A DNA stretch of 64,000 nt from Saccharopolyspora phatthalungensis (GTDB lineage Bacteria; Actinomycetota; Actinomycetes; Mycobacteriales; Pseudonocardiaceae). Location: the NCBI RefSeq assembly GCF_014203395.1, contig NZ_JACHIW010000001.1, positions 3,703,501 through 3,767,500 of the forward strand, written 5' to 3'. The position numbers and the translations under genes were made by a program. Positions 1,189 to 11,273 of the stretch are shown piece by piece. The notes beneath the pieces were generated by a model, which saw only the letters and a list, made by a program, of their open reading frames with translations, was not told the DNA's origin and did no database searches. The stretch's first letter is position 1. The number at the start of each line of letters is the position of its first letter.

Positions 1189-1548
1189 ATGCACGGGACA
1201 TCCATTGACGAGGAAGCACCACACATCGCCGCGATTCGGCGCAGCATGGATGAAGGCTTCCAGTTCCTCCACCTGCCCGACCTCGAACGCCAGGAACTCG
1301 CCGCCATCTACGCCGAGCGTCAGTACGGCGGGGTCGTGGAGAGCTACACGATCCGGGACACCGACAAAGCCATCGCTGCCCGATTCCGAGTGGAGGACTA
1401 CCCCGACGGCGACCCGTTGTGGCAGGCGCACGGAGCGGTTGAGGAGGTCATCACTGCGTTGCTGGAGCTGCCGCCGCCCGACACGCCCGCCGCGCCGAGC
1501 CGAACCCGTCGGCCGTCGAGTGCTCTGTGGGTTCCGGGTGCGGGATAG
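1189..1548 (+). CDS. Hypothetical protein
   Basis: This 119-aa protein starts at the ATG at 1189, preceded by an AAGGAAG ribosome-binding site. It is acidic and soluble (MHGTSIDEEAPHIAAIRRSM at the start; EDYPDGDPLWQAHGAVEEVI further on) and has a proline/arginine-rich C-terminal tail. No domain is recognised. It is the first plus-strand gene opposite the DUF6879 trio. About 520 bases separate it from the lanthipeptide genes, so it may belong to the regulatory module rather than the biosynthetic operon. Confidence 0.5.
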   Translation: MHGTSIDEEAPHIAAIRRSMDEGFQFLHLPDLERQELAAIYAERQYGGVVESYTIRDTDKAIAARFRVEDYPDGDPLWQAHGAVEEVITALLELPPPDTPAAPSRTRRPSSALWVPGAG

Positions 1549-2071
1549 TGCCGGACTCGGCCGAGGCTTGGCCTGGCCTTTTCACCGGATACCTGGTCCA
1601 TCGCGTGCGCCATGCCAATTCACGACGCCTCTACGCCGCCCTGCGCTACTTCGGGCTTGCAGACTGTGGCGCCGCCTGTGTTCCTGCGCCGCCACGCCCG
1701 AGTCAGCGGTACTGCCCCACCTGTTGGTTGCAGGGCAGTCCAGTCGACCGGCGATCGACGATCACGAGCCAGCGGAACGTCGCCGCACGAACGCCCGTCG
1801 ACGGCGGTACGCAGGCCACGTAGGGCTACGTCTCGTGCTGGTCACCGGTTTCCGTCGTGAGTCCCACCGAAAACCGTCCTGGGAGAGTATCCGTGTGAAC
1901 ACTTTCCGTGATGGGAGAGTCGCCGTGGCTGACTCGCCCGCTCAGGCCGCACGTGGGTCTCCATTCCTAGCGCTGACCAATGGAGTGATCGGGCTGGGCC
2001 GGGGCGATCAGATAGAGCGTCAACGTCGATTCAGTCCTGGAAATGACTGCGGCAATAGATGGAGTAACCAG
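1549..2071. other. Intergenic stretch upstream of the lanthipeptide operon
   Basis: These 523 bases contain no reading frame I can support. An open frame at 1527-1823 has a CPTCW motif, but no ribosome-binding site or family match. The last 200 bases before the methyltransferase presumably carry the operon promoter. No palindrome or obvious -35/-10 pair stands out. Confidence 0.4.
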
Positions 2072-3337
2072 GTGAATTCACTTCGTGAGATGAAAGCGGA
2101 TTCTGCTAGCGATGCCTCGCGGGCCGAGGCTCTGCGGGAGGAAATGATCGGCAAGCTCTGGGAGATGGGGGCGATCCGAAGCGATCGGGTCGCCGAGGTT
2201 TTCCGCGCGGTTGACCGGCGTTGGTACACGCTGGACACACCGTTGGAAGAGGTCTATGACCCGATGGGCGCCGTGCATGTGAAGTGGGACGAGCACGGTG
2301 TGCCGGTCAGTACGGTCTCCTCGCCGCAGCTTCAAGCCGGCATGCTGGAGCAGGCCGACATCCGCCCCGGCATGAATGTGCTGGAGATCGGGTCGGGCGG
2401 TGTGAATGCCGCGATGATGAGCTGGCTGGCCGGGCCGGGCGGAACGACCACCACTGTGGACATTGACCCCGATGTGACCGACCGCGCCCGCAGCCTGCTG
2501 GATCAGACCGGCTACTCGGGTGTGAACGTGGTGACCGCGGATGCGGAGAACGGCGTGCCGACGCACGCACCTTACGACCGGATCATCGTCACGGTCGGAG
2601 CGTGGGACATCCCGCCTGCATGGCTCGACCAACTCGCGCCGGAGGGCTGCATCGTGGTTCCTCTGCGAATGCGGGGCTTGACCCGCTCGTTGGCCCTGGA
2701 AAGGACCGGCGACCACCTGGAAAGCCAATCCGCCGACGTGTGCGGTTTTGTCAAGATGCAGGGCGCGGGAGCCAACGCGGAACAGTTGCTGTCCCTGCGC
2801 GACGAGAAAGTCCTGGTCCGCTTCGACGACGGTTGGCCCGGAGACCAGCCGCCCAAGTTGGACGGCGTGCTCGACACCTCGCGCGTCGATGTGTGGTCTG
2901 GCGTGACCATCGCCGGCACCGAGTCGTTCGACACTCTCCAGCTCTGGCTGGCCACCGTGTTCACCGGATTCGGTCGTCTGGCGGCTGAGGCCAGTCAGAA
3001 GGAAGCGCTGGTCGATCCCGACGTGATGTGGTTCGACCCGACAGCGGTCCAGGACGACTCCGTTGCCTACCTGACCGCGCGCCGTGCAGGGCCGGGGGTC
3101 TCCGAGTTCGGGGTGCACGCGTTCGGCCCGCACGCTGGCGTGCTGGCGGAGGCGATGGCCGAACAAGTGCGCGTCTGGGGCCACGATCAGCGCCACGGTC
3201 CGGGACCCGCGTTCGCGGTGTGGCCGAAGGACGCTCCCGCCGAGCGTCTGCCCGAAGGACTCGTCATTGACAAGCGGCACTGCCGCGTCACGGTCTCCTG
3301 GCCCACAGCTAATACCGCCGAGGACCAGGGAAATTGA
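2072..3337 (+). CDS. PCMT-like O-methyltransferase of FxLD lanthipeptide system
   Basis: This 421-aa protein resembles L-isoaspartate O-methyltransferase in its first ~230 residues. It has a VLEIGSGGVNAAMM SAM-binding loop near residue 103, an acidic VDIDPD strand end, and a C-terminal extension specific to RiPP enzymes. It precedes the precursor gene by 25 bases. In class I lanthipeptide clusters this enzyme type (LanSA, TIGR 'methyltransferase, FxLD system') methylates an aspartate in the modified core, leading to succinimide or isoaspartate. The GTG start at 2072 is chosen because GGAG lies 7 bases upstream; an ATG at 2090 is the alternative. Substrate assignment comes from the neighbouring FxLD precursor. 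Confidence 0.88.
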   Translation: MNSLREMKADSASDASRAEALREEMIGKLWEMGAIRSDRVAEVFRAVDRRWYTLDTPLEEVYDPMGAVHVKWDEHGVPVSTVSSPQLQAGMLEQADIRPGMNVLEIGSGGVNAAMMSWLAGPGGTTTTVDIDPDVTDRARSLLDQTGYSGVNVVTADAENGVPTHAPYDRIIVTVGAWDIPPAWLDQLAPEGCIVVPLRMRGLTRSLALERTGDHLESQSADVCGFVKMQGAGANAEQLLSLRDEKVLVRFDDGWPGDQPPKLDGVLDTSRVDVWSGVTIAGTESFDTLQLWLATVFTGFGRLAAEASQKEALVDPDVMWFDPTAVQDDSVAYLTARRAGPGVSEFGVHAFGPHAGVLAEAMAEQVRVWGHDQRHGPGPAFAVWPKDAPAERLPEGLVIDKRHCRVTVSWPTANTAEDQGN

Positions 3338-3362
3338 GGAACAACATAAGGAGAGTGATCAC

Positions 3363-3557
3363 GTGCCTCTGTCACTGGCACTAGCCGACGGGATTGACAC
3401 GGCACCGGCCCCTGAGACCGACGAGTTCACGCTCGATGTGAGCGTGGTGGAGGCGAGCCTGCCGTTGGCGAAGATGTCGTGCGACACCAGCGACAACTGC
3501 GGCGGGACGACCTGCGGCAGTGCTTGCACCAGCCAGGTCGCCCAGAACCCGTTCTGA
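3363..3557 (+). CDS. FxLD family lanthipeptide precursor
   Basis: This 64-aa precursor has a GTG start with a strong AAGGAGAG site 7-8 bases upstream. The leader is acidic and contains the diagnostic FTLD motif at residues 22-25, which LanB-type enzymes recognise. The core, roughly residues 37-64, has four cysteines (C40, C46, C51, C55) among Ser/Thr residues 39, 42, 43, 49, 50, 53, 56 and 57, ending SACTSQVAQNPF. Up to four (methyl)lanthionine rings are possible. Asp41 and Asp44 lie between cysteines and are candidate sites for the methyltransferase. Ring pattern and leader cleavage site cannot be read from sequence. Confidence 0.92.
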   Translation: MPLSLALADGIDTAPAPETDEFTLDVSVVEASLPLAKMSCDTSDNCGGTTCGSACTSQVAQNPF

Positions 3558-3600
3558 TTTCCCTTCCTCCCAATAAGAATGTCTGATGCAGGAGGCGGCA

Positions 3601-6600
3601 GTGGGCTCTCGGACCACCTTCTACCGGAGCACGGGTGTCGTGCTGGCGCGTGCCAGCACCGACCCCGGTGGACTGGAATTGCCCGACGACCTCGACGGTG
3701 ACAGCGCGGCTTGCCGGGAGTGGCTGGCGCGGCTGTGGCACCGCGCGGAGGTCCGGGCCGCGCTGAAGGTGGCCAGTCCGGTGCTGTCCCAGCAGATCGA
3801 CGCCGTGCTCGCTGGCGAGGTCATCGAGAACCGCCGGCTCGTGAGCCTGCTCGGCTCGGTCTCGTCGTATCTGCGCCGCTGGCAGCGGCGCGCCACCCCG
3901 TTCGGCCTCTTCGCCGGGGTGGCCGCCGCGTCAGTGGGTACCGCTCCCACTCCGCTACGCCACGAACCTCACCGGATCACGGCTCGGGCGGATGCGCGAT
4001 GGCTGGGCCGCATCGTCGACGATCTGGAACAGCGCACCGACCTCCTGAAACGGCTGTCCGTGGTGGTCAACAACGCCGGATTCATTCGTGGCGACCGGTT
4101 TGTCATACCGACCCGGCCAGACGAAACCCAGCCGGGGAAACCCGCCGCGCTGGACGTCGCAGTCCGCCTGTCCAAGCCGGTACATGCGGCGCTGGCCGCA
4201 GCAGACACACCGAGACCGCTCGCGGCAGTGGCCCACAGGATCGCCGAGAAAATTCCCCACGCCACATCCGACCGGATCTACTCCCTACTGACTGATCTGG
4301 TCTCCCGTCGAGCATTGATCACCAATCTGCGCGCACCAATGACCACTGTGGACGCGCTGGCGCATTTGATCGCCGAGCTTGAGGCCGCCGATGCGGGTGA
4401 TTTGCCAGACCTCGGAGACCTGATCAAACAGCTCTCCACCATCCGCGATGAACTGCCCTGCGATGCCCCCTCGGAGCCGTCCTCGCTGGCCGCGTTGGCG
4501 GGCGCCGCCGAGCGGATGCGGGAGGTGCGCGATGCCGAGAAGACCCTCGCCGTCGACGTCGCACTGCAAGACCAGCTCACGGTGCCCGACGTGGTGCTGC
4601 AGGAGGCTGAGTCTGCGGCCACGGCATTGCTGCGCCTGACTCAGCACCCGTTCGGCACACCCGCCTGGCGCGACTTCCACGCCCGCTTCCTTGACCGCTA
4701 CGGCGCGGGAACGCAGGTGGCCGTGCGTGACGTCATCGCCGACTCCGGGCTGGGGTTTCCCGCCGGCTGGCTTGGCGCCCCGCGGTTACACAGCCCTCAC
4801 CTCCTGACTGAACGCGATGGCACACTGCTGGCCCTCATCCAGCGCGCCACGGCGGACGGCCAACGCGAAATCACATTGACCCAGGAACTGATCGACCGTC
4901 TCCGGGTCGGCGACCACGACAACATGGTCCCTCCGGAACGAGTCGAGCTGGCCTTTCAACTCCACGCGCGTTCCTCCGACGCCCTGGCACGGGGACGGTT
5001 CCAGCTGTGGGTCACCGGAGCGATGCACGCCGGCAGCATGGCCGGCCGGTTCGCGCACGTGCTGCCAGACGCCGATCGACACCGCCTAGCCGGGACCTAC
5101 GAACCGGGCGGCGAGCACACCATCGCGGCGCAACTCTCGTTTCCGCCGCGTCGCGAGCACAACGAGAACATCACCCGCGTACCAGAGCTGCTACCGAAGG
5201 TCCTGTCGTTGTCCGAGCACCACGGCAACCATGGCTCGGAGATCGATATCGACGATCTCGCGGTTACTGCAGATCATCAAGGGTTGAGCCTGGTGCGATT
5301 GTCCACCGGGCAGCGGGTGCGGCCGTGGGTGCTGCACGCACTAGAGACGTCGGCGCAGACCCCGCCGCTGGCGCGATTTCTGGCCGAAGTCCCGTCGGCG
5401 CGCTGCGGCTTCTACGGACTGCTCGACTTCGGAGCCGCCCGGGAGATGCCCTTCCTGCCTCGCGTGCGCTACGGCCGCACGGTGCTGTCGCCGGCCCAGT
5501 GGAGACTGGGGTCAGTCGACCTGCCCCAGACCGACGCGGAAGAGTCCACTTGGGACATCGCGCTGGCCGAGTGGCGTGACCGGTGGCAGGTTCCCGCATC
5601 GGTGCTGCTGGTGGAAGGCGAGCAACGCCTCCCGCTGGATCTGGACGACCGGCACGACCGGATGCTGTTGCGACGTCGCCTGGATCGCAGCAGCAACGTG
5701 ATCGTGCGCGAAAGCGGTGACCATCAGGATCATGCCTGGGCGGGGCGCGTGTGCGAATTCCTCGTCCCACTGACCGCTGCCGGCCCCGTTGATAACCGTC
5801 CCCGGACGGCAGCGCACCACACCATCACACGCTCCGACGCGCACCTTCCAGGCAATACCGCAGTGCTTCGCGCCGACCTGCGCGGCCACCCTTGGCGCTT
5901 CAACGACATCCTCACCACGTACCTGCCGCACTTACTCCATGCCGTCGAGGACCACGCGGAACGATGGTGGTTTTCCCGGCATCACGACAGCACCCGCCCT
6001 GACAGCGACCAATACCTCGTGCTGTCTCTCCGGCTTCACGATCCCGGACAGTACGGGGCAGCCGCCGCGCGGCTCGCCGACTGGGCCGCACAGCTACGCG
6101 ACGCCGGTCTGCTTGCGGATCTCGCACTCGGCACCTACCAGCCGCCGGGAACCTTCGGCCACGGGCCAGCCAACGAGGCGGCGGCCGAAGAGGTCTTCGC
6201 GGCCGATTCCGCCGTGGCGCTGGCCCAACTCCACTGGGCCAGCGGAACCGGACCGCCCATCCAGGCTGCTGCGGCTGCGTCGATGGCCGACATCGCCGCG
6301 TCCCTGGCCCCCAGCCCCGAAGCAGGCTATCGCTGGCTGTGTGAACTCATCCCGCAGGAACACGGAAAGCTCGACCGCTCGCTACGCGAGGCCGCACTAC
6401 GTCTGACGGCCATCGGTTCTCTGCCCGAGCTGAGCATGATCCCCGCCGGTCACCCCGTGGCCACCGCGTGGCAGCGCCGGCGAGCCGCATTGGCCGCCTT
6501 CCGCGACCAGCATCGTCGCGGCCCCGAACCCGCAATCGTGTTGCGGACATTGCTGCACGACCACCACCTCCGTGGCGTGGGCGTCGATCCCGGTACCGAA

Positions 6601-6672
6601 CGTCTGACCAACCGGCTCGCGCGCGTCGTCGCCCAACGCCAGCTCGCGTTGCTGGGCAGGGGATACCCGTGA
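3601..6672 (+). CDS. lanB: Full-length class I lanthipeptide dehydratase (LanB)
   Basis: This 1023-aa enzyme dehydrates Ser/Thr of the precursor core using glutamyl-tRNA. Residues 1 to about 740 form the glutamylation (Lant_dehydr_N) domain, beginning TTFYRSTGVVLARAS and including the LRRWQRRATPFGLFAGV segment typical of the family. Residues ~757-1005 form the SpaB_C elimination domain, with HPWRFNDILTTYLPHLL and ERWWFSRHHDS. The length matches full LanB proteins (~1000 aa). The GTG at 3601 is preferred over the ATG at 3586 because AGGAGG lies 5 bases before it. The stop overlaps the lanC start (GTGA), indicating translational coupling. Confidence 0.93.
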   Translation: MGSRTTFYRSTGVVLARASTDPGGLELPDDLDGDSAACREWLARLWHRAEVRAALKVASPVLSQQIDAVLAGEVIENRRLVSLLGSVSSYLRRWQRRATPFGLFAGVAAASVGTAPTPLRHEPHRITARADARWLGRIVDDLEQRTDLLKRLSVVVNNAGFIRGDRFVIPTRPDETQPGKPAALDVAVRLSKPVHAALAAADTPRPLAAVAHRIAEKIPHATSDRIYSLLTDLVSRRALITNLRAPMTTVDALAHLIAELEAADAGDLPDLGDLIKQLSTIRDELPCDAPSEPSSLAALAGAAERMREVRDAEKTLAVDVALQDQLTVPDVVLQEAESAATALLRLTQHPFGTPAWRDFHARFLDRYGAGTQVAVRDVIADSGLGFPAGWLGAPRLHSPHLLTERDGTLLALIQRATADGQREITLTQELIDRLRVGDHDNMVPPERVELAFQLHARSSDALARGRFQLWVTGAMHAGSMAGRFAHVLPDADRHRLAGTYEPGGEHTIAAQLSFPPRREHNENITRVPELLPKVLSLSEHHGNHGSEIDIDDLAVTADHQGLSLVRLSTGQRVRPWVLHALETSAQTPPLARFLAEVPSARCGFYGLLDFGAAREMPFLPRVRYGRTVLSPAQWRLGSVDLPQTDAEESTWDIALAEWRDRWQVPASVLLVEGEQRLPLDLDDRHDRMLLRRRLDRSSNVIVRESGDHQDHAWAGRVCEFLVPLTAAGPVDNRPRTAAHHTITRSDAHLPGNTAVLRADLRGHPWRFNDILTTYLPHLLHAVEDHAERWWFSRHHDSTRPDSDQYLVLSLRLHDPGQYGAAAARLADWAAQLRDAGLLADLALGTYQPPGTFGHGPANEAAAEEVFAADSAVALAQLHWASGTGPPIQAAAAASMADIAASLAPSPEAGYRWLCELIPQEHGKLDRSLREAALRLTAIGSLPELSMIPAGHPVATAWQRRRAALAAFRDQHRRGPEPAIVLRTLLHDHHLRGVGVDPGTERLTNRLARVVAQRQLALLGRGYP

Positions 6673-7889
6673 TCGCCCAGCCCACCGACGACCTCACCGG
6701 CCAGCTCGTCGACCAGCTGACAACTTCGATGCCGCCTGCCGCCGACGAGTTCTGGCAGGTGCAGTCGCTGTCCCGGGGAACTGCGGGGATCGCACTTCTG
6801 CACATCGAACGAGCCCATACCAACGCGGGAACCTGGACTTCAGCCCACACGTGGGTAAAGGCCGCCACCGCGGACAGCGTCATCGACAGCAACGACGCAT
6901 CGCTGTATCTCGGTGCTCCCGCGATCTGCGCCATGCTGCACGCAGCAGCCGACCAGATCCCGGCCTACGCGGCAGCGTTGAACAGAATCTTGCCCGCCGT
7001 CATCGCCTCAGCCCACCGTCGCGTCGACGCCGCCCTGACACGGATCAACCGCAGGGAAACCGCAACCTTCGACGAGTACGACCTATTCCGCGGGCTGACC
7101 GGCATCGGACGACTTCTTCTGGAGCAAGAGCCGGGAAACGACGCACTCGCACGGATTCTCGACTACCTCGTACGACTGACCCACCCGCTGCAACTCGACG
7201 GCACCACGCTTCCCGGATGGTGGGTCTCCCACGACCCAGACCCCAAGCTGCCCGCCCCCGGAGGGCACGCCAACTTCGGCCTCGCCCACGGCATCAGCGG
7301 CCCGCTCGCTCTTCTCGCAACGGCCCAGCGGCGCGGCGTCACCGTGCCCGGCCAGCCCGAGGCCATCGAACGCATCTGCGCCTACCTCGACACCTGGCGT
7401 CACAACAGCGACAGCGGCTCCTGGTGGCCCCAATGGATCACCCGATCCCAACTCAACGCAGAAGCCTTACACCAGCACGAACCGCCCCGGCCGAGCTGGT
7501 GTTACGGCACCCCCGGCATCGGACGCGCCCACCAGCTCGCCGCGCTCGCTCTTCCCGACACAGCACGACAACGCATGGCCGAACAGACCGTGGCGGCGTG
7601 CCTGTCCGATCCGGCTCAACTCGCTCTGATCGGCGACACCAGCCTGTGCCACGGCTGGTCCGGGCTCTACCAAACTGCCTGGCGCACCGCCCAGGACGCG
7701 CTCACCCCCGCGATCAGCCTCCAGCTACCGCACCTGGCCCGCCAGCTCACTCGGCACGTCGATCTCCGCGCGACCGGCGAGGATGCCGGGTTCCTGACAG
7801 GCGCAGCCGGCCTCGGCCTCGCCCTGCACACCGCCAGCCGCAACGCTGCGCCTCTCTCCGGATGGGACTCATGGCTACTGATCAGCTGA
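6669..7889 (+). CDS. lanC: Lanthionine cyclase (LanC)
   Basis: This 406-aa zinc enzyme adds cysteine thiols to the dehydrated residues to close lanthionine rings. The LanC hallmarks are present in order: GLAHGISGPLALL, then WCYGTPGI with zinc ligand Cys278, then LCHGWSGL with Cys327 and His328. A FLTGAAGLGLAL repeat closes the alpha/alpha barrel. The length equals that of typical LanC proteins. The GTG start overlaps the lanB stop by four bases. The next gene begins inside its last codons, so the whole set is one operon. Confidence 0.93.
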   Translation: MIAQPTDDLTGQLVDQLTTSMPPAADEFWQVQSLSRGTAGIALLHIERAHTNAGTWTSAHTWVKAATADSVIDSNDASLYLGAPAICAMLHAAADQIPAYAAALNRILPAVIASAHRRVDAALTRINRRETATFDEYDLFRGLTGIGRLLLEQEPGNDALARILDYLVRLTHPLQLDGTTLPGWWVSHDPDPKLPAPGGHANFGLAHGISGPLALLATAQRRGVTVPGQPEAIERICAYLDTWRHNSDSGSWWPQWITRSQLNAEALHQHEPPRPSWCYGTPGIGRAHQLAALALPDTARQRMAEQTVAACLSDPAQLALIGDTSLCHGWSGLYQTAWRTAQDALTPAISLQLPHLARQLTRHVDLRATGEDAGFLTGAAGLGLALHTASRNAAPLSGWDSWLLIS

Positions 7890-8878
7890 ATTCCGATCGT
7901 CGCAAGAACATGCCCTGTTCTTCCGCGACGGCAACGCCTGCCGAGATCGCACAGGCCGTGCTCGCGGTGCTCAGCGGTACTCCACTCGACCAAGTTGCGG
8001 CCGAGAAAGACATCGAGTCTGCCGATCTGGCCGACGCATGCCAGACCTACCAGCAAGCCGGACTTGCCGCATTAGAAGCCCACGCCGAGCACGACTGGTA
8101 TCAGGTCTCCCTCGAACTCCCCACCGGGGACAGCGTCGAGCACACGATGACTGCCATCCTGGCCCCTCGGCTACAGCAACTACAGGACACCGGCGATATC
8201 ACCGCATGGTGGTTCATCCGCAAGACTCCTGGCCTACGCGTGCGAATCACACCTGGCAACACGGCCGCCGCCGTGGAACCCGTCCTCGACGAACTCGTCA
8301 CCTCAGGCGCGCTCGCTTCCTGGCGCCGAACCCGCTACGAACCCGAGGCCATGGCCTTCGGCGGCCAACCGGGAATGGCCATCGCACACAAGCTGTTCAG
8401 CGCGGATAGCCACCACATCCTGGCCTACCTCCGGCAATCGCAGCCCGCCATAGGCCGACGCGAACTCTCAATCCTGCTGTGCACAGCGATGTTCCGCGGA
8501 GCAGGACAGGAATGGTTCGAGTGCGGCGACATTTGGCACCGCGTCTCCCAAACACGGCCGAAGCCCGCCGACGTTGCCAGTTCAGCCGAACTGGCCACCC
8601 AGCTCGCCACGCTGCTCACCCACGATCCGCGGCCCGCCGGCCCGTTGTTTGGCAACGAAGGGCCGCTGACGGCCTTCGCGCCTTGGGCTAACGCGTTTCA
8701 CGACGCGGGATGCGTCCTGGCGACAGCTGGTAACGACGGAACCCTGCACAGGGGCATTCGCAGCGTCCTTGCCCACCATGTGATCTTCCACTGGAATCGG
8801 CTCGGGCTGACGCTGCCAACGCAAACCATCCTGGCCCACACCGCTGCCGGAGTAATCGCCGGAAGCGAGGTCGTGTGA
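7871..8878 (+). CDS. Stand-alone SpaB_C / thiopeptide-type bacteriocin biosynthesis protein
   Basis: This 335-aa protein has a short N-terminal region with a predicted three-helix segment (AEIAQAVLAVLSGTPLDQVA). A SpaB_C-like domain follows from about residue 75: DWYQVSLELPTGDS, AWWFIRKTPGLRVRI and a C-terminal FHWNRLGLTLPTQ. This fold is the glutamate-elimination half of LanB, although the full LanB next door already has its own copy. The start is the ATG at 7871, 19 bases inside lanC; an ATG at 7910 is a weaker option. Its stop overlaps the next gene. It may act as a second elimination or accessory scaffold subunit, which is inference. Confidence 0.82.
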   Translation: MATDQLNSDRRKNMPCSSATATPAEIAQAVLAVLSGTPLDQVAAEKDIESADLADACQTYQQAGLAALEAHAEHDWYQVSLELPTGDSVEHTMTAILAPRLQQLQDTGDITAWWFIRKTPGLRVRITPGNTAAAVEPVLDELVTSGALASWRRTRYEPEAMAFGGQPGMAIAHKLFSADSHHILAYLRQSQPAIGRRELSILLCTAMFRGAGQEWFECGDIWHRVSQTRPKPADVASSAELATQLATLLTHDPRPAGPLFGNEGPLTAFAPWANAFHDAGCVLATAGNDGTLHRGIRSVLAHHVIFHWNRLGLTLPTQTILAHTAAGVIAGSEVV

Positions 8879-9423
8879 GCAGCGTGCAGGCAGCCGCAGC
8901 AGCCTTACGGGTGGTGATTGCTCAACTTCCCAAGGACGTCGTGACACGACTCGACAGTGACCTTGCGACCGTGACGGACCTTCTCCGCGAAACGTTAGGC
9001 ACCAGCTGTCGCGAGCAGGAAGTGCTCTTCGAGGCCAACAGCCTGCGCTCCGGCCTCGTCGAGTCGCTGGCCGAGGTGCTGAACTGGGTCGAGCGAGCAC
9101 TTGAGGACAAGGCTGCTCAGCTCGCTGATCAGGGAGCGCCAGGTGAAGCGGCATTGCCAGGCGAAGTCAGCCGCAAGGTACAGGAACTGCGTGGTAAGCC
9201 GCCCCCGAAGACCTCGGACAAGGACATGAACCGGTATATGCGGGAGATCACCAGTCAGGGGTGGGCGGTCGAAAAAACCGGTGGCAACCACCTCAAGGTC
9301 TGGGGGCCGGCTGGCGAAGGACCGTACGTGTTCTCGTCGACTCCCAGCACCGCAACCAATAACCGCAAACTGCGCGCCCTCACCGAGCAGATCCGAAAGA
9401 ACAACCGGAAGGACAACACGTGA
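8875..9423 (+). CDS. Protein with HicA-like C-terminal domain
   Basis: This 182-aa protein starts with a GTG overlapping the previous stop. Residues 1-100 are helical and of unknown family. The last ~70 residues resemble the HicA mRNA-interferase fold: EITSQGWAVEKTGGNHLKVW, a conserved-looking His in the GGNHLKVW strand, then YVFSSTPSTATNNRKLRAL. HicA toxins are normally about 60 aa and paired with HicB; no HicB is recognisable here. Its tight coupling to the lanthipeptide genes suggests co-expression. Toxin activity is unproven. Confidence 0.6.
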   Translation: MSSVQAAAAALRVVIAQLPKDVVTRLDSDLATVTDLLRETLGTSCREQEVLFEANSLRSGLVESLAEVLNWVERALEDKAAQLADQGAPGEAALPGEVSRKVQELRGKPPPKTSDKDMNRYMREITSQGWAVEKTGGNHLKVWGPAGEGPYVFSSTPSTATNNRKLRALTEQIRKNNRKDNT

Positions 9424-9866
9424 CCTCTGAATCGCCCACGCCAACCGACACGCCTACGCAGTGGCTGATGGTCAGCGGCGGCGAGACCGAGCCGGCGGAC
9501 CTTCGCCTGTACGCGCAGCTGTCTGACCCGCACACCGGTCACGGAACCGAGACAGGCTCGGCGTGGTTCATCGGAATCACCCGCGTCTTCACCGGGTGCC
9601 CTGACCCACGTGCGGATCTGGAGAGGCTGGCGACTTCCTGGTTCGAGCGGTCCGGCTTGACTCCCTTGCTCGCGCAAGTCGACGCCGAAGCGCAGGCGGT
9701 GACCTTCTGGAAAGCCCTCGAAATCAGAGACGCCACAGAAGCCATCCGGTTGACGGTCGACGGCATCACCCGCGCCATCGAGCAGACCGACTTGGCTGGC
9801 GCCATTCCGCACACAGGATTCAGCGTCGAGGTGATCGCCGAGCGCGACATCGATGACGAGCGTTGA
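9420..9866 (+). CDS. Hypothetical protein in lanthipeptide operon tail
   Basis: This 148-aa protein has a GTG start overlapping the previous stop by four bases. After a polar N-terminus come alternating strands and helices (TGSAWFIGITRVFTGCPDPR, TFWKALEIRDATEAIRL). No catalytic motif, membrane segment or known family is seen. Its stop overlaps the next start by 14 bases, so it is translationally coupled on both sides. It could be a partner of the HicA-like protein, by position only. Confidence 0.6.
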   Translation: MTSESPTPTDTPTQWLMVSGGETEPADLRLYAQLSDPHTGHGTETGSAWFIGITRVFTGCPDPRADLERLATSWFERSGLTPLLAQVDAEAQAVTFWKALEIRDATEAIRLTVDGITRAIEQTDLAGAIPHTGFSVEVIAERDIDDER

Positions 9867-10104
9867 CGAGCTACTCGCTGCGCTGCAAGGGGTACGGGAG
9901 ACCTTGCCCCACGACGCAGCCGAGGAATACCGCACGAGGATGGATTCCGCAGAGCAGCAGGTCTTAGCAGTTCTCCGCACGAGCCGCGACGAAGCTCACT
10001 TACGGGGGATCGTCGCCAAGGCCCGGGAGGACGGCACAGAGCAGATCCGGAACTGCATGACCAAGCTCGATGAACTGATCGCAGCAGCAGGAAGCCATTG
10101 GTAA
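9853..10104 (+). CDS. Small alpha-helical hypothetical protein
   Basis: This 83-aa protein is almost entirely helical and charged (MTSVDELLAALQGVRETLPH onward; EQIRNCMTKLDELIAAAG near the end). It overlaps the preceding gene by 14 bases and ends the operon. The composition suggests a short coiled-coil or helical bundle partner. No family is recognised. The sequence downstream is eroded, so this gene marks the right limit of the intact lanthipeptide operon. Confidence 0.6.
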   Translation: MTSVDELLAALQGVRETLPHDAAEEYRTRMDSAEQQVLAVLRTSRDEAHLRGIVAKAREDGTEQIRNCMTKLDELIAAAGSHW

Positions 10105-10323
10105 AAGGGGATAGCAGACATCGCGGTAGTTCGAGCCAGACGCCGGCCGGGGGTGGCGACGCCAGCTCGCCCCTGACGACCTACGAGCCCACCTCCCACC
10201 TGTAAGTGCCCAGGTGAATTCGAGCCCCGAGCTGACAGATTCACTGGCGCCGGACAACTCGGCGAAACCGGTGTAGCGGCGTATGTGGCAGGACTGGCCA
10301 TACCTGATCGGTACGGTGCGGAT

Positions 10324-10456
10324 ATGGGACCGAGTTCCGACCGGGTGGGTCGGGTAGGCGTGCACGGGGTGGCACTGCTGGTTGTCGGCGAGCTTGGTTG
10401 GAAGTTCCGCGAACAGAACGAGTCCGACTGGGGCATCGACGCGATCATCGAGGTCT
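10324..10456 (+). pseudogene. DUF4365 protein, N-terminal remnant
   Basis: From the ATG at 10324, about 44 codons (RVGRVGVHGVALLVVGELGW then KFREQNESDWGIDAIIEV) match the start of DUF4365 proteins, including the conserved FREQ and SDxGIDAxxEV motifs of this nuclease-like fold. The similarity then ends abruptly. The expected LLALQIKSG-type strand is missing in all frames. The open frame continues to 10704 with unrelated sequence. It is a truncated remnant. Confidence 0.6.
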
Positions 10457-11273
10457 TTCCAGTCCTGCCACGGGTCGGCCACGTAGAAGATCGGGCGTGC
10501 AACGTGGCTCGCTGCCGGCGGCGGACAGCCGGAGTCGGGGCAGACGGCGTGCGCATGGCGGCCGTCATCGCCGACCGCCTTCCTGCTTGCGGTTGGCCGG
10601 CGGCCAGACGTAGCCGCAGTTGCATTCCGAACCAACCACCAGTGTTCGGGACGATTTCCCACGTGGTGCACATGTGTCCCGAGGGCGAGGTCAGCGCGGT
10701 GTGATCGGAATTGGGGTGGCAGGTGGGCGGGGGCTCTACAGCCGTTGACACGGCCGATCAACTCCAATCTTCCCTCGGGGACGTCGTCTCCTCTGGAGCA
10801 GGCGGTGGGAGAGGGACACCGCGCGCTCATCTGGGACTCAGACGCCACGGCGGCCCCAGTCAAGGGCGGGGTCTCGACAGAGCCAGCCGCCGTGGCTGAG
10901 TCCTGACCGATCCGTTCGGGGGCTGCCGTGAGGGCAGCGGATCGGACAGGACGATCGGGGGTTACCTGCCGCGGTTGATGACTCGACGGGCGATAGCTAC
11001 GACTGCCGACCACGGCGGCAGCAGCCGGTCGGGCTGGGGTTGCTGCCACCACGACGTGGTCTCAGCGATCGGAGGAATGCCGAGCAGGTAGGGCAGCACT
11101 CGTACCCAGCGTCGACGGACTCCGCAGGTGAGGTCGAGCTGTGCAGGCGTGGCTGAACCGCGGCCACAAGGGATCTGGCGCTGCTCCTCTTTCCTGGCAC
11201 TGGACCGCCGCGGCGATCGAACTGGAACTAGCGGCCCGTCCCGCGATCTCCGAACATTGCGGAGAATCGGACC
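10457..11273. other. Eroded intergenic stretch
   Basis: No intact gene is seen in these 817 bases. The minus strand has a start-less open frame (10962-11273) whose last 50 codons look protein-like (RRRWVRVLPYLLGIPPIAE, LLPPWSAVVAIARRVINRGR) and may be a C-terminal gene remnant. It follows the hydrogenase protease stop in the same frame. Patches at 10500-10700 on the minus strand also read like shifted coding sequence (CTTWEIVPNTGGWFGMQLRL) but match nothing I know. Confidence 0.4.

Follow-up and report, generated by a model that had tools for sequence, protein, structure and literature searches.

A five-gene FxLD lanthipeptide operon of Saccharopolyspora phatthalungensis with a standalone glutamyl lyase and a full-length LanB lacking elimination-site arginines

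Gene content of the operon

We analysed a 64,000-nucleotide stretch of the genome of Saccharopolyspora phatthalungensis (assembly GCF_014203395.1, contig NZ_JACHIW010000001.1, positions 3,703,501 to 3,767,500; hereafter the window), in which five genes on the plus strand, between positions 2072 and 8878, make up a class I FxLD lanthipeptide operon. They encode, in this order, the methyltransferase LanSA, the LanA precursor, LanB, the cyclase LanC and a standalone glutamyl lyase (GL), and are separated by gaps of 25 and 28 nucleotides followed by overlaps of 4 and 19 nucleotides. Our main concern is the LanB, a full-length protein that has lost the arginines of its elimination site, together with the syn-type lyase encoded in the same operon.

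The FxLD system is named by NCBIfam for both LanSA and the precursor, each well over its cut-off, and LanB, LanC and the GL are backed by Pfam. The first gene (fxlM, 2072..3337) encodes LanSA (METHYLTRANSFERASE), a PIMT-like O-methyltransferase of 421 amino acids with a Pfam PCMT domain at residues 23-228 followed by a C-terminal extension; it scores 514.3 bits against TIGR04364 (cut-off 320). The precursor gene (3363..3557) starts with a GTG that lies 9 nucleotides after a Shine-Dalgarno-like AAGGAG and encodes a 64-amino-acid peptide (including DEFTLDVSVVEASLPLAKMSCDTSDNCGGTTCGSACTSQVAQNPF) with FTLD in the leader, cysteines at positions 40, 46, 51 and 55 and aspartates at 41 and 44, which matches TIGR04363 with 57.2 bits (cut-off 30, E 1.2e-15). 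All 25 database matches of the precursor are 53-74 amino acids long and several are named FxLD family lantipeptide; the nearest are 95% identical (unnamed) and 84% identical (FxLD family lantipeptide). LanB (3586..6672, 1028 amino acids) joins a glutamylation domain (Lant_dehydr_N, 672 bits) to an elimination-like C-terminal domain (Lant_dehydr_C, 77 bits) and matches NisB, MibB and MadB. LanC (6669..7889, 406 amino acids) is a LANC_like protein (142 bits), and the GL (7871..8878) is a SpaB_C / Lant_dehydr_C protein (TIGR03891, 188 bits) with a fold like that of the elimination domains of MadB, MibB and NisB.

An earlier, sequence-only reading of this DNA had recognised an FxLD lanthipeptide locus, a PCMT-like methyltransferase gene ahead of the precursor, and an FTLD leader, four cysteines and the two aspartates in the precursor, all of which the family matches and the translated frame bear out. 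Its gene list omitted the standalone lyase, and its account omitted the changes in LanB described below. The locus is indeed an FxLD lanthimiditide operon and falls within known families.

Residues lost and kept across related clusters

We compared the window LanB with NisB (4wd9) using a profile built from 12 LanBs, which aligned along most of NisB, and using family alignments. At the place of NisB R784-L785-R786, which binds the glutamyl gamma-carboxylate, the window protein has V812-L813-S814 (6019..6027), and at the place of R826 it has T856 (6151..6153); the latter assignment is independent of gap placement because residues 842-866 contain no Arg. R784/R786 and R826 are given as important for NisB in PMC9486935. 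Among the residues by which a canonical anti-eliminating LanB is recognised, the window protein thus lacks R786 and R826 and has H961, the catalytic histidine of NisB, as H991 (6556..6558). R816, two residues past S814, could in principle substitute for a lost arginine. The glutamylation domain keeps the equivalents of NisB Y80, R83, R87, T89, D121, D299 and a last residue that we take to be R464 in NisB numbering. The set from R83 onwards is taken from the MadB paper (PMC12241602).

Section 9 of PMC9486935 defines a syn-type GL by a Lys that replaces the Tyr of anti-type GLs and a hydrophobic residue that replaces Arg826, and in the profile alignment the window GL has K118 at NisB Y776 and A162 at R826. 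Its signature, R117 K118 ... R123 R125, has the spacing of CoiSA(ED) K46, R51 and R53, whose roles are described in section 8 of the same paper, and we take the codons from K118 to R125 (8222..8245) to encode their equivalents. K118, R123 and R125 are found in 72 of the 73 GLs encoded beside arginine-less LanBs, the remaining one being gapped there.

These counts come from two surveys of related LanBs. The first comprised 40 regions, including the own genome, and 69 loci from one scan with patterns of five arginine-less LanBs; with the duplicates L093, L103 and L118 dropped, it gave 86 LanBs, 55 without R786 and 31 with the R784/R786 pair. Because a pattern scan of this kind favours the arginine-less clade, we added 100 further places, namely the 60 and 40 best-scoring, uncovered and unrepeated matches of a 176-residue LanB fragment in 220 genomes of the family and 296 of the class, respectively. 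A phylum-wide LanB search, in which two candidates were scored per genome, gave few useful matches. Together the surveys yielded a full-length LanB in 180 of 209 loci, corresponding to 160 distinct sequences: 86 have R784 and R786 and 74 are without R786, 72 of the latter being without both. In the clade of six that holds the window LanB, R784, R786 and R826 are all absent from every member and H961 is absent from one as well; this clade is the strongest case for lost elimination.

A GL is encoded in the same locus for 73 of the 74 LanBs without R786, always as a separate gene, compared with 57 of the 86 LanBs that have both arginines, 20 of these 57 being fused to LanSA. In the single arginine-less cluster without a GL (L159), a transposase gene near a contig end interrupts LanC; GL matches occur elsewhere in this genome, on contigs C14 (45% identity) and C9, the second of which also bears a further LanB locus (L176). 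In a tree of the glutamylation domain the 55 and 31 LanBs of the first survey are parted by one branch, with a support of 100 in the Shimodaira-Hasegawa-like approximate likelihood-ratio test (SH-aLRT). On the FastTree tree of all 160 LanBs R786 has been lost at least twice, in a clade of 73 and in L233, which stands alone beside the intact L229. In L233, Gly and Trp replace the arginine pair and Gln replaces H961, and its GL carries RKHPCWRLR. The number of changes in GL presence is five among intact LanBs and one, in L159, among arginine-less ones; with so few, the co-occurrence of the two features is consistent but is no large independent sample, and a stricter test, of whether the GL is retained only where needed, was set aside for the same scarcity of independent changes. 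In the main texts of the open-access papers searched, we found no statement of arginine loss in a full-length LanB and no description of a LanB of this kind, which has a syn-type lyase alongside in nearly every case.

To recover the precursors of the first survey we used a pattern in which [TS]x[DE]xC is required, which partly predetermines how often Asp is counted: among the precursors recovered, from 83 of the 86 loci with a full-length LanB, the acidic position is Asp in 82 and Glu in one (L055, where the first of two matches was counted and which also contains TSDNC). Three precursors read by hand have TDDNC (L081), TDDGC (L058) and TDNGC (L125), that is, Asp in two of three; the L125 precursor has Asn at the conserved place although its cluster has a LanSA gene. 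The window precursor has the motif as T42-S43-D44-N45-C46, which represents the lanthimiditide TXDGC type with an Asn at n+1, a variant reported in PMC13001092. D44 (codon 3492..3494), placed in a TxD[G/N]C motif conserved among the relatives as [TS]xDxC, is probably the target of LanSA methylation, rather than D41. D41 was rejected as target because its position varies, some relatives having S, Q, P or N.

The sequence-only reading had pointed out that in related clusters such methyltransferases act on an Asp of the ring-bearing core to give succinimide or isoaspartate. The type of enzyme and its expected action on a core Asp are backed by TIGR04364 and by published work, and the probable target is narrowed to D44, only this aspartate being in the conserved motif. 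The chemistry itself is already described for OlvSA in PMC13001092, where the enzyme is said to accept only the cyclised peptide and to form a methyl ester, then an aspartimide and finally 70-80% isoAsp; by analogy, the same is expected of the window LanSA at D44. A PDB sequence search with LanSA listed 11 PIMT-type sequences, the best being 1dl5, and none among the matches listed is named as a lanthipeptide enzyme. Relatives of LanSA are also present on Streptomyces plasmids.

Among 155 LanCs five positions part the two groups, namely 134 and 137, which come just before the invariant D138, and 186, 188 and 189. The window LanC has the clade-specific residues F134, Y137, V186, H188 and D189 there, near the invariant D138, W184 and W185, and these are possibly tuned to a different geometry of dehydrobutyrine (Dhb). 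By comparison with NisC, D138 would be catalytic, and C278, C327 and H328, present in the window protein in invariant columns, would be zinc ligands. The precursors differ between the groups as well: a Cys right before the motif is found in 46 of 54 precursors with an arginine-less LanB, against 1 of 18 with an intact LanB and a GL and 8 of 11 with an intact LanB and no GL, and a C-terminal [D/N/A]-P-x occurs in 47 of 54 beside an arginine-less LanB and in none of the 29 of the intact groups. Along with a change before Y80 of LanB that is discussed below, these differences linked to arginine loss hint at a distinct type of product.

A proposed pathway and its alternatives

We propose, with a probability of somewhat under 60%, that LanB glutamylates the precursor, that the separate GL performs the eliminations mainly or wholly, that LanC closes the rings, that LanSA methylates D44, and that the rings at T42 and T50 are D-allo-L. 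LanB would bind the FTLD leader and esterify Ser and Thr of the core, Glu-tRNA being the source of the glutamate. We assign elimination mainly or wholly to the GL because the elimination site of LanB has lost its arginines for the glutamyl group; in the coi system, PMC9486935 reports elimination at all three Thr by CoiSA(ED) when the lyase of CoiB was inactivated. LanC would then form the thioether rings T42-C46, T50-C55 and C51-S57, and C40 may belong to a fourth ring; by spacing the three pairs correspond to Thr43/Cys47, Thr50/Cys55 and Cys51/Thr57 of CoiA1, the ring pairs given in the Discussion of PMC9486935. LanSA would finally methylate D44 within the first ring, leading to a succinimide and, for the most part, isoaspartate. 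Because syn elimination converts Thr to (E)-Dhb, the T42 and T50 rings should be D-allo-L-methyllanthionine.

The best surviving alternative, which we nevertheless consider unlikely, is that the C-terminal domain of LanB still anti-eliminates with a rebuilt pocket and that the GL serves a single position, as has been reported for coi. Several observations speak for it and weigh against the assignment of the eliminations to the GL. The main ones are that the window LanB has kept H991, along with the equivalent of NisB R966, and that 55 of the 74 arginine-less LanBs have both H961 and R826 (64 and 60, respectively, when counted singly). In addition, L108 and L136 have lost R786 and kept R784, NisB R784A is reported in PMC4341554 to give 7 dehydrations in vivo, and section 8 of PMC9486935 describes the effects of R51A and R53A in CoiSA(ED) as mild. 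The C-domain also diverges at a normal rate, the median ratio of C-domain to N-domain divergence being 1.07 and 1.03 in the two groups, so that no general decay of this domain is seen and it is still under constraint, perhaps for structure or for substrate handling. Against this alternative, R786 is lost in all 74, L233 has lost H961 too, and all six members of the window's clade are without the R826 equivalent as well as the arginine pair.

Far less probable is that glutamate has been replaced as the aminoacyl donor for the LanB of this clade, which would have changed both its aminoacylation site and its elimination pocket. Arg precedes the catalytic Y80 in 84 of the 86 intact LanBs and in none of the 74 arginine-less ones (S 56, A 10, G 4, T 2, I 1, F 1), as this explanation would have it, but the GL retains the arginine pair to which binding of the glutamyl carboxylate is ascribed. 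Moreover, L229 has Ser before Y80 with its elimination residues intact; for this reason we also rejected the idea that a change at this place brought about the arginine loss. Finally, we give next to no credence to the cluster being a non-functional relic: no listed match of ABC_tran, S8 or S9 falls in the window and no sigma-70-like promoter was matched within 1700-10400, but the five genes are all open frames, closely spaced or overlapping, in an arrangement found in many genera.

Each of the known systems resembles the window operon in part. The olv system of Streptomyces olivaceus, with OlvA(BCSA) (Acedo 2019, as recounted in passages of PMC13001092, PMC9486935 and PMC7268733), is likewise class I and has a LanSA, a TxDGC-type Asp in a methyllanthionine ring and an extra N-terminal Cys/lanthionine ring; in these accounts, however, the additional GL is absent and OlvB is described as a canonical anti-type dehydratase. 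The coi system of Streptomyces coelicolor, as presented in PMC9486935 and PMC9011353, shares the LanSA, a syn-type GL and a similar spacing of ring-forming residues, but its GL is fused to LanSA, CoiB keeps the catalytic His and Arg, and the extra N-terminal Cys is absent. In the spt (SapT) system, with SptBa and SptBb, a separate syn-type lyase also serves for elimination according to PMC9011353, where the LanB has no elimination domain, whereas the window LanB has one minus its key arginines. NisB, MibB and MadB are full-length, two-domain proteins with the glutamylation residues, like the window LanB, yet MadB, as described in PMC12241602, keeps the equivalents of R786, R826 and H961, of which the window LanB has only the His.

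Section 9 of PMC9486935 predicts anti-elimination for all full-length LanBs, and the surveys show a large group of full-length LanBs without the key arginine for it. If the pathway that we propose is true, ring stereochemistry could become predictable from a few residues of LanB, and these clusters would be natural tests of a question raised by coi, that of ring closure by the cyclase on (E)-Dhb at every position. Tentatively, and with the balance leaning slightly the other way, the whole could be a widespread actinobacterial clade in which a full-length LanB is a glutamyl transferase only, a separate syn-lyase makes all eliminations, a co-evolved LanC accepts (E)-Dhb everywhere and all methyllanthionines of these isoAsp-bearing peptides are D-allo-L, forming a third lineage beside olv and coi.

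Surroundings of the operon and other clusters of the genome

In the own genome there are five TIGR04363 precursors, and four methyltransferases pass the TIGR04364 cut-off, so the window operon is one of several such clusters. One of these (L077, C1:5466500-5485500) combines a short LanB that has no elimination domain with a fusion of GL and LanSA, the LanSA end of which is in a different frame; the presence of this cluster in the same genome is counted in favour of GL-based elimination. A second cluster with an arginine-less LanB lies at C1:3814500-3833500 (L042), and another at C2:1466500-1485500 (L076) is fragmentary: its LanSA is split between two frames, and its LanB piece is shorter than 200 amino acids.

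The sequence-only reading held that the window contains no transporter or leader protease. This stood for the three families sought in the own genome, of which no listed match falls in the window (ABC_tran, 150 of 252 candidates scored; Peptidase_S8, 10 of 10; Peptidase_S9, 51 of 51), other transporter and protease types not having been searched. ABC transporters and proteases are among the commonest proteins of lanthipeptide clusters at large (Walker 2020). The flanking genes of 86 clusters, called by a simple rule on GC content at third codon positions (GC3), gave 27 families common to at least four loci, and representatives of 10 were scanned with Pfam. These 10 comprise regulators, an S-adenosyl methyltransferase, a phosphotransferase, an amino acid permease, a relaxase, an S9 peptidase and three without a match; no ABC transporter is among the 10 of 27 families scanned. 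The S9 prolyl-oligopeptidase gene, found near six arginine-less clusters (L092:6469-8334 and five others), is a candidate leader protease. A protein of about 375 amino acids without a known domain is encoded directly after the GL in 26 of the 86 loci, 22 of them arginine-less (e.g. L084:15148-16275); none clustered with it for the window.

No Rfam match was found within 1500-10500, and neither a sigma-70-like promoter match nor a plus-strand terminator-like match within 1700-10400. The earlier extent of the operon, 2072..10104, proved too long on the right, where positions 8875-10104 hold three genes (D1-D3) that resemble a separate module. They were rejected as operon members, having no homologue at E < 0.1 in the other 108 loci of the first survey and keeping their order in two other genomes, where the 3.5-kb loci contain no GL. 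D1-D3 are overlapping genes of 182, 148 and 83 amino acids without a Pfam or NCBIfam match, and their order is repeated in two genomes of the same family (L256, L257). They overlap the GL gene by 4 nucleotides and may be co-transcribed with the operon.
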